Positions 24,317 to 26,973 of a stretch of DNA of 33,967 bases are shown here, one piece after another; the first letter of the stretch is position 1, and each line of letters begins with the position of its first letter. The DNA lies in assembly GCA_902785885.1 (NCBI GenBank), contig CADAAS010000042.1:1-33967 (forward strand), read 5' to 3'. The position numbers and the translations under genes are program-made. The DNA comes from Pseudoselenomonas ruminantium. Its GTDB lineage: Bacteria; Bacillota; Negativicutes; Selenomonadales; Selenomonadaceae. The notes under the pieces were generated by a model that saw nothing but the letters and a program-made list of their open reading frames with translations, was not told the origin of the DNA and made no database searches.

Positions 24317-24899
24317 TCATTGCAGGGGTAAATGCTTTAATTCCTGACGCAGCCAGTCAAGCCGCTGTTTTTCCCGCAGGATGGCCTGCTGAAGTATGCA
24401 GCGGTGGCCAAAATGATTTTGCTGGGCTTCTTCATCGGCAAAGAGTAGCTGCCAGCGGGCTTGGAGGTATTGATATTTTTCCTCATGGCGGGCGATTTCC
24501 TCTTGAAAGAGCTGGCGTGTCAATGGGTCAGCAGCCGAATCCAACAGGTAAAGTTTCATGGTAAAGTCGTCCCGGGTTGGCACAGGCTGGCTTAGTGGTT
24601 CATGCATCCAGGCGGACAGCAGTTGCTGTCCGCTTTTTGTAATCTGATAGAATTTTTTTTCGAGCTTTTTGCCGACAGAATTTTTTTTCGAGCTTTTTGC
24701 CGACAAGTTCTGTGCGGGAACTGATCAGGCCATCATCTTCCATATGGCGTAATTCTGGATAAATCTGGCTGTGGTTGGAATACCAAAAATCGCCTAATTC
24801 TTCTTCAAAGAGTTTTTTGATGTCGTAACCAGCAAGCTCCCTGTGTGCCAGCAGCCCCAGGATAATATATTTCAGTACATTTTTTTGTGCCATATTCAT
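24317..24899 (-). pseudogene. padR: PadR-family repressor broken by a 28-bp tandem duplication
   Basis: PadR-type winged-helix repressors silence phenolic acid decarboxylase genes until hydroxycinnamic acids appear. The N-terminal frame (from ATG 24899; 24893 is an alternative start giving MAQKNVLKY) has the family pattern YIILGLLAHRELAGYDIKK and WYSNHSQIYPELRHMEDDGL. At the wing it reaches an exact 28-bp tandem repeat (24649-24704). Because 28 is not a multiple of 3, the frame shifts and ends at 24600. The C-terminal helical dimerisation part continues in the other frame to 24317. Removing one repeat copy restores a normal protein of about 184 residues (VGKKLEKKFYQITKSGQQLL). The protein as given would lack its dimerisation domain. 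Confidence 0.88.
24649..24704. repeat. Exact 28-bp tandem duplication inside padR
   Basis: Units 24649-24676 and 24677-24704 are identical. Each holds an 8-T run (A8 in the padR message) and a 5-T run. The duplicate adds one base modulo three. The lack of divergence points to a recent event or an unstable site. Confidence 0.95.
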
Positions 24900-24923
24900 C
24901 ACATCTCCTTTTTATCTTGCCTT

Positions 24924-24952
24924 AGTATAGCATAGATGAATAAATTTGACAT
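24924..24952 (-). promoter_or_regulatory. Probable padR promoter
   Basis: On the minus strand ATGTCA (24952-24947), a 17-base spacer and TATACT (24929-24924). Its -35 overlaps the first two bases of the upstream PadR operator, which suggests autoregulation. Confidence 0.5.
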
Positions 24953-24966
24953 GTATTTTATTACAT
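24951..24966. promoter_or_regulatory. PadR operator 1 (ATGT-N8-ACAT)
   Basis: ATGTATTTTATTACAT matches the dyad recognised by PadR/LmrR-type regulators. It sits between the divergent promoters, abutting the padR -35 and ending four bases before the padC -35. Confidence 0.7.
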
Positions 24967-24970
24967 GATA

Positions 24971-24999
24971 TTGACATGGAGCTGAAAAAGCGTTATGAT
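24971..24999 (+). promoter_or_regulatory. padC promoter
   Basis: Consensus -35 TTGACA (24971-24976), an ideal 17-base spacer and -10 TATGAT (24994-24999). A strong promoter by consensus; transcription would start near 25006. Confidence 0.8.
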
Positions 25000-25015
25000 A
25001 CATTATGTCAAGAAT

Positions 25016-25031
25016 ATGTAAATACATACAT
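25016..25031. promoter_or_regulatory. PadR operator 2 (ATGT-N8-ACAT)
   Basis: ATGTAAATACATACAT has the same dyad with an 8-base spacer. It lies just downstream of the expected padC start site, where a bound repressor would block initiation or early elongation. With operator 1 it brackets the promoter. Confidence 0.68.
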
Positions 25032-25052
25032 GATTTAAGGAGGAACTTAAAG

Positions 25053-25583
25053 ATGAAATTTAAGGAACTGGATGATTTTTTAGGAACGCATTTTATTTAT
25101 ACTTATGATAATGGTTGGGAATACGAATGGTATGCCAAGAATGATCATACGGTGGATTACCGCATTCATGGCGGCATGGTTGCTGGTCGTTGGGTGAAGG
25201 ACCAGGAAGCCAATATCGTCAAGCTCACGGACGGCGTATTCAAGGTAACCTGGACGGAACCGACGGGCACGGATGTGGCTTTGGATTTTATGCCCAATGA
25301 AAACATCATGCATGGTGTGATTTTCTTTCCGAAATGGGTGCAGGATCATCCGTCCATTACGGTCTGCTTCCAGAATGAGCACATTGACCTGATGGAAGAG
25401 TCCCGCGAAAAGTACGAAACCTATCCGAAATATCTGGTGCCGGAATTTGCCAAGATTACCTATATGGGCAAGGCAGGTCAGAATAACGAAGACGTTATTG
25501 CCGAAGCACCTTATGTCGGCATGACGGATGAAATTCGTGCTGGCAAATATTTTGATGCAAATTATAAGCGTTTGAAAAAATAA
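25053..25583 (+). CDS. padC: Phenolic acid decarboxylase
   Basis: Converts p-coumaric, ferulic and caffeic acids to the 4-vinyl phenols plus CO2 without a cofactor; a detoxification enzyme. 176 residues, the usual length, cytoplasmic lipocalin-like barrel. Catalytic residues known from Bacillus (Tyr11, Tyr13, Arg41, Glu64) are matched with a constant offset by Tyr16, Tyr18, Arg46 and Glu69 ([28 protein letters not shown]). The start at 25053 has AAGGAGG at 25037-25043. It is divergent from padR with two operators between, and 18 bases upstream of a secreted esterase that probably shares the message. Confidence 0.95.
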
Positions 25584-25601
25584 AAGCAGGAGGTCATAGC
25601 G

Positions 25602-26702
25602 ATGAAAGCAGGTAAATTGCGGAAACTCTCTCTAGCGGCGTTATTGTCACTGGCTTTGGCTGTGCCCATGACTGGTGGCAGCTGCGCAGCTGCCGAAAAT
25701 CTGGTCAATATGCAGCCAACCTACCGTGATGTCGTAGTGGCCAATGTGCAAAATGACAATGGTGCGCCGCGCCAGCTGCGCATGAATGTATTTGTGCCGC
25801 CGAAAGTGAAAGCTGAAAAAGTTCCTGTACTGGTGTTCGTGCATGGCGGCGGTTGGGCACGAGGCTCCTATGAGGGGGACGATGCTAAGCAAAGTGCATC
25901 CAGTGCGGTGAACAATGGTAACAATGCCTTGATGGACAAGGACAATAAATCATCGTATAAGATTTTCAAGGATGTATTAAATCATGGGATTGCCTTTGTG
26001 TCTGTGGATTACCGGCTGAACAGCGAAGCGGCCTTCCCTGCGCAGATTTATGATGTAAAGGCGGCCGTGCGTTTTGTACGCGCTCATGCCGATAAGTATG
26101 GGCTGGATGCTGAGCGGATTGCCATAGCGGGCACATCTGCCGGAGCGCACTTGGCTGCAGAACTTGCTGTGACCAGCGGCAATAAGGCACTCGAAGGCGA
26201 TGAAGGCGGCAACCTTGGTTATAGCAGCAGAGTAAAAGCCTGTGTTGATTATTATGGCCCCACCAATCTTTTGACCATGGCACCGGAAATGAGTACCAAA
26301 CTGCAAGACCCTGCTCAGGCGGCAGAAACCCATGATTCTGTCCGTGCAAATGAGTCCATTCTCTTGGGCTTTGTGGGAGAAGGTCAGGGCGTAGGTACCT
26401 TGCGCAAGCTTGACGAGGCACAGGATAAAACTTCACCATATTGGAAAATGGTGGAAAAGGCTAAACTGGCCAGCCCCGTTTATCAGGTGACGAAAGATGC
26501 GCCGCCGTTCTTCATTGCCCATGGCGGTCATGATTCGCTTGTGCCCATTCAGCAAAGCATCAGCCTGCAAAAGGCTTTGACCGATGCTGGTGTGGAAAAT
26601 ATCTTTATGTGTAACTCAGAAGCCGAACATGGCTATGTGGGCGAAGATACCAACAAGGCCATGATGCGCTGGCTGTGCCATCAGCTGGGCGTAAAATATT
26701 AA
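25602..26702 (+). CDS. Secreted alpha/beta-hydrolase esterase, possibly a hydroxycinnamoyl esterase
   Basis: Carboxylesterase of the hormone-sensitive-lipase/BD-FAE-like type, 366 residues. Residues 1-30 are a signal peptide; GGSC at 25-28 is a poor lipobox, so cleavage after CAA is more likely. Oxyanion motif HGGGW at 81-85, nucleophile Ser179 in AGTSAGAH, acid Asp311 (GGHDSLVP) and His343 (EHGY). AGGAGG precedes the start. Placement directly behind padC suggests it frees ferulic or coumaric acid from plant-wall or phenolic esters outside the cell, supplying the decarboxylase. That substrate is an inference from context; the fold alone would allow many acyl esters. Confidence 0.82.
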   Translation: MKAGKLRKLSLAALLSLALAVPMTGGSCAAAENLVNMQPTYRDVVVANVQNDNGAPRQLRMNVFVPPKVKAEKVPVLVFVHGGGWARGSYEGDDAKQSASSAVNNGNNALMDKDNKSSYKIFKDVLNHGIAFVSVDYRLNSEAAFPAQIYDVKAAVRFVRAHADKYGLDAERIAIAGTSAGAHLAAELAVTSGNKALEGDEGGNLGYSSRVKACVDYYGPTNLLTMAPEMSTKLQDPAQAAETHDSVRANESILLGFVGEGQGVGTLRKLDEAQDKTSPYWKMVEKAKLASPVYQVTKDAPPFFIAHGGHDSLVPIQQSISLQKALTDAGVENIFMCNSEAEHGYVGEDTNKAMMRWLCHQLGVKY

Positions 26703-26713
26703 GTATTTGCGCA

Positions 26714-26742
26714 TTGCATTCCTGCGGTCTTTATGCTACAAT
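26714..26742 (+). promoter_or_regulatory. Promoter of the pheST T-box transcript
   Basis: TTGCAT (26714-26719), a 17-base spacer, TACAAT (26737-26742). The start near 26749 coincides with the beginning of the T-box leader. Confidence 0.72.
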
Positions 26743-26749
26743 CTTATGT

Positions 26750-26973
26750 ATTGTGGCGATGAACAAGAAGAGTAAACTTCGCAGGCATTTTTAGAGAGTC
26801 TCCGTTGCTGGGAAGGAGATAATGCCGGAGGTTGAACGTTCGCTTGGGAGTCTTTCGGAGGAAATGCCGAACGTATGACTGCGTTAAAGTTATCGAGTGA
26901 AAAATCAGGGTGGTACCGCGAAATTCAGCCTTCGCCCCTCGTGCACATATTGTGCAGGGGCGAGGGCTTTTAT
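26750..26973 (+). ncRNA. T-box riboswitch leader of pheS
   Basis: tRNA-sensing leader that lets transcription continue when tRNA-Phe is uncharged. The T-box sequence AGGGTGGTACCGCG is at 26907-26920; its TGGT would pair with an ACCA tRNA end, as expected for a tRNA with discriminator A. Stem I begins near 26757 with an AAGAGTAA segment typical of the AGUA bulge. A TTC at 26839-26841 on the 3' side of stem I is a candidate Phe specifier codon, not verified by folding. The terminator is GCCTTCGCCCCTCGTGCAC pairing with GTGCAGGGGCGAGGGC and a T run (26928-26973). The alternative antiterminator would use the T-box and the terminator's 5' arm. Confidence 0.92.

Follow-up and report, generated by a model that had tools for sequence, protein, structure and literature searches.

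The window analysed here is a stretch of 33,967 nucleotides, contig C42 of a metagenome-type assembly (G000) that comprises 266 contigs and is 86% complete; the genomes nearest to it are those of Selenomonas ruminantium, together with assemblies from the rumen. It carries the repressor gene padR on the minus strand and, divergent from it, a decarboxylase gene, padC, and an esterase gene. As assembled, the padR frame (24600-24899) runs from a conserved ATG at 24899 to a TGA at 24602-24600 and encodes 99 aa, with a frameshift after residue 74 (KLEKKF), and it matches only positions 1-60 of the 75 in the PF03551 profile. The remainder of the gene, which covers the last part of the winged helix and the PF10400 domain, lies out of frame at 24317-24648 on the same strand and is 91-95% identical in nucleotides to the sister genomes. 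A TATACT element (24924-24929, minus strand), read from the sequence and its alignment and kept in the sister genomes, is the -10 element of the probable padR promoter.

On the plus strand, the padC promoter (24971-24999) consists of TTGACA (24971-24976), a 17-bp spacer and TATGAT (24994-24999), and is flanked by two intact PadR-type operators, ATGT-ATTTTATT-ACAT at 24951-24966 and ATGT-AAATACAT-ACAT at 25016-25031. Downstream are an intact padC for a phenolic acid decarboxylase of 176 aa (25053-25583, plus strand; PF05870, E 8e-75) and an intact gene of the BD-FAE family, feruloyl/acetylxylan esterase-like, of 366 aa (25602-26702, plus strand; PF20434, E 4e-55). The ATGT-N8-ACAT pattern is the published PadR operator (PMC4517056, PMC10295242), and its placement on both sides of the padC promoter, with padR divergent, is that expected of a PadR system. 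Both operators are present at 12 of the 13 padC loci of the genus, the exception, G010, having a single mismatch in the second operator, and the operator-promoter composite occurs a single time in the window genome, at this locus. In known systems of this kind PadR represses padC, and p-coumaric or ferulic acid releases PadR. A literature search found no report of phenolic-acid decarboxylation in Selenomonas ruminantium.

A perfect tandem duplication truncates PadR

The padR frame is interrupted by a 28-bp unit, AGAATTTTTTTTCGAGCTTTTTGCCGAC, present head to tail in exactly two copies, the first at 24649-24676 and the second at 24677-24704 in plus-strand order, with zero mismatches; Tandem Repeats Finder returns a period of 28 with 100% match over 24649-24705, a 57-bp array. 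The window contains no other perfect tandem duplication whose unit measures 15-200 bp, and none turned up when 359 kb of related loci were scanned, which argues that its presence in padR is not a matter of chance. Microhomology was considered as its source and rejected: just one base is ambiguous at the ends, so no pre-existing repeat explains the event. Each copy also contains an A8 tract on the padR strand (24653-24660 and 24681-24688), and a -1 slip in either restores the frame and gives a PadR of 193 aa, that is, with nine extra residues.

The extra copy disrupts the open reading frame, and the one-copy form is intact. Read with one copy, padR encodes 184 aa that align end to end with the sister PadR proteins at 95-98% identity and carry the two Pfam domains of a PadR repressor (PF03551, 59.5 bits; PF10400, 42.9 bits), while the assembled allele retains only a truncated PF03551 match of 43.6 bits. 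A profile comparison aligns the one-copy protein with PDB 5X11 over positions 7-178 of the profile and makes it an orthologue of this PadR family regulator, which we take to be Bacillus PadR; this orthology to a solved structure allows the break to be placed within the protein. The frameshift falls in the wing, between LVGKKLEKKF and YQIT, where the conserved sequence is G-KLEKK-Y. Beyond this point the last part of the winged helix is lost, as is the C-terminal domain with the dimerisation and ligand-pocket region; residues 107-145 of Bacillus PadR have been reported to overlap the ligand pocket (PMC10443031). The first-pass annotation of this DNA had claimed a perfect 28-bp repeat, an A8 tract in each copy through which a slip adds nine residues, recovery of a full PadR on removal of one copy, and disruption of the wing with loss of the dimerisation part, and each of these claims agrees with the exact match, the computed 193-aa product, the alignment of the 184-aa orthologue and the Pfam and 5X11 comparisons.

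The 99-aa product would retain the first helices, and since it would lack the second strand of the wing and the part for dimerisation and ligand binding, it is presumably unable to repress, in which case padC and the esterase gene would be expressed without inducer. One route by which repression could be partly kept is slippage of RNA polymerase or the ribosome at the A8 tracts, which could supply some 193-aa PadR with a longer wing loop. Bypass of an 8A repeat giving functional protein has been documented and measured in another gene (PMC3812077), which makes partial PadR activity possible, and here a -1 shift in either tract suffices; the nine added residues would nevertheless sit in the DNA-contacting wing, and we regard a leaky allele of this kind as unlikely. 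Rescue by a second padR copy was likewise considered and rejected, as the only PF03551 match in the 86%-complete window genome is the disrupted gene itself and no second PF03551 gene was found there, though one may lie in the unassembled part. With both operators intact and padR the only PF03551 gene found in the 86%-complete genome, derepression of padC and the esterase gene is to be expected. The first-pass annotation had proposed the same outcome, and by analogy with the known system padC-esterase expression is likely to be constitutive.

The rest of padR bears no sign of decay. Its dN/dS is 0.01-0.065 in every comparison, indicating strong purifying selection, and all 12 differences private to the window padR are synonymous; decay has thus not yet followed the lesion, which is probably young. 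An old pseudogene was rejected as an explanation, given that the gene has neither a private non-synonymous change nor a further lesion. The age of the lesion is only loosely limited by these data, because much of the private divergence arrived with an import.

The duplication lies in the edge interval of a probably imported tract

In five sister genomes padR directly adjoins pheS with nothing between them, and padC and the esterase gene are found elsewhere (loci L036-L045). Across 24705-26760 of the window, padC and the esterase gene stand between padR and pheS, an arrangement seen in the window genome only. Homology to the padC-esterase segment of the sisters begins at the first operator (24951-24966). 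Within padR, codons 1-60 are 86-89% identical to the sisters, which are 90-97% identical to one another, whereas codons 73 onward are 91-95% identical, the same as between sisters; 11 of the 12 private coding changes are found between 24732 and the 5' end of the gene, and the remaining one is at 24593. The divergence is local, and both flanks are mostly more than 90% identical to at least one sister. From this mosaic padR start and the normal identity on both flanks, we infer that a local tract of about 2 kb, which starts inside padR and ends shortly after the esterase gene, most likely came by import from a relative that is not among the sampled genomes. By sister comparison it covers 24732-26702 and includes the padR start, the operators, padC and the esterase gene; its left edge falls in the 139-bp interval 24593-24732, which contains the duplication, and its right edge at about 26703-26760. 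The donor most likely had the common padR-padC-esterase gene order, as in G005, G014 and other genera. An older padC relic persists in the window genome at the sisters' padC position, split over contigs C93 (L034:8958-9148) and C38 (L035:1-208), having lost its 5' end, about 144 bases of its interior and the esterase gene.

The position of the duplication inside the left edge interval suggests a shared origin of the two, although this is not significant alone, as a random duplication in padR would hit the interval about one time in five. The duplication could then be a scar left when recombination introduced the padR start and the padC-esterase tract, an account in keeping with the shift in identity between codons 1-60 and codons 73 onward, with an edge interval that surrounds the duplication and with the local extent of the tract. 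On the other hand, no join is marked by any difference between the two copies, which are identical, and in-register homology was available, which makes an out-of-register join unnecessary. We give this account a small chance.

The same data bear on whether the two-copy sequence exists in any cell, or whether the contig fuses two strains. The assembly is of metagenome type in 266 contigs, and the mosaic structure of padR falls at this very place, where about 111 bp (counted with one copy) lack private differences. Against an artefact, contigs C93 and C38 overlap by exactly 99 bp, which suggests assembly with k=99, which is long enough to cover the 57-bp array; the error that graph assemblers make is to collapse repeats, not to add copies; and both flanks are similarly identical to the sisters. 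An artefact appears quite unlikely. A whole-contig chimera of two species was separately rejected, the flanks having similar identities to the sisters and the divergent part being local.

Comparison with relatives and the question of a switch

The genus is represented by 21 further genomes; padR is intact in 15 of them, each time with one copy of the unit. In the wider family and order, padR is also one-copy, mostly intact and usually beside padC, and neither a second 28-mer copy nor any other length variant at the site occurs in any relative examined. The comparison that the first-pass annotation had suggested thus gave, for the relatives, the outcome it had named as speaking against its claim: none of those examined has more than a single copy. 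Nor is the A8 tract conserved, being A7 or interrupted in several relatives. Intact padC is present in the window genome and in 12 others, and padR is intact in all 12 of those, so that among the genomes seen a broken padR with an intact padC occurs only in the window genome.

These observations weigh on the proposal of the first-pass annotation that the repeat is a reversible on/off switch. Under that proposal padR would be a contingency locus, in which frequent expansion and contraction, under selection, alternate repressed and constitutive phenolic-acid degradation. A perfect repeat able to contract precisely, a padR with no other lesion and the real precedent of capsule duplications in pneumococcus (Waite 2001, 2003, as cited in a passage of PMC4022640) would all fit such a locus. 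The comparison points the other way: the tract is neither conserved nor length-variable in relatives, the A8 tracts vary, and no second genome of the genus combines an intact padC with a broken padR. Moreover, the one-copy state contains no repeat, the end homology being only one base, and offers nothing that would make duplication, the forward step, frequent. The claim of a switch is consequently not supported, and we consider a contingency locus improbable; a conserved switch was rejected, since the second copy is absent from every relative examined. Still less probable is a population-level variant of the idea, in which the duplicated repressor serves as a bet and part of the rumen population expresses padC and the feruloyl-type esterase constitutively on lignocellulose-derived phenolics.

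Taken together, the findings make it reasonably probable that PadR, the repressor of phenolic-acid breakdown, lost its function through a spontaneous tandem duplication of 28 bp that arose recently. Precise contraction could in principle revert the allele, and such reversion is physically possible, but every perfect tandem duplication is reversible in this sense, and the comparison with relatives offers nothing in favour of an evolved switch. The lesion looks like a young, ordinary loss-of-function allele that is capable of reverting.

This allele can be set beside three known systems. (i) In Streptococcus pneumoniae, spontaneous tandem duplications inactivate capsule genes (the type 3 capsule locus, cap8E and tts; Waite 2001, 2003), and the expected reversion at a nine-base insertion is at most about 1e-5, both according to a passage of PMC4022640. 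Here as there, a short tandem duplication inactivates an open reading frame and precise loss of a copy restores the gene. For the capsule both states and reversion have been observed, and the gene affected is structural, whereas for padR one assembled allele is known; because padR encodes a repressor, its loss, unlike that of a capsule gene, should switch genes on. (ii) The PadR-padC stress response of Bacillus subtilis and Lactobacillus plantarum shares with this locus the divergent padR and padC, the ATGT-N8-ACAT sites and a PadR orthologous to 5X11, but here padR is disrupted and a BD-FAE-type esterase gene follows padC. (iii) At phase-variable simple-sequence repeat loci (reviewed in PMC11868660), as at padR, a change in repeat number could switch the reading frame; in contrast to them, padR has two long copies in one genome, with neither a conserved tract nor evidence of a high rate.

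Retention and decay of padR in the genus

Should the allele be real and widespread in its population, it would be a naturally occurring variant, in a major rumen genus, that degrades phenolic acids constitutively, and an example of genes being turned on by a tandem duplication within a repressor. Should it be rare or transient, the assembly has captured an ordinary knockout. Perhaps more useful is the wider pattern, that the genus keeps padR intact wherever padC is kept and that padR is otherwise seen to decay only in genomes that have lost padC. Three other genomes have broken padR genes, G001 (L138), G019 (L139) and G021 (L052); all three are relics without the N-terminal part, that of G021 being frameshifted in addition, and none is accompanied by padC. 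These three lesions are irreversible, and decay of the repressor seems to follow loss of its target padC in the genus. Two further genomes, G008 and G017, retain an intact padR without padC.

Loss of padC itself seems to have been repeated within the genus. In G018 a short 5' piece of padC (L049:7749-7859) lies beside padR and the esterase gene, and S. ruminantium HD4 (G007) carries the C-terminal fragment of a second padC (C17:13633-13848).
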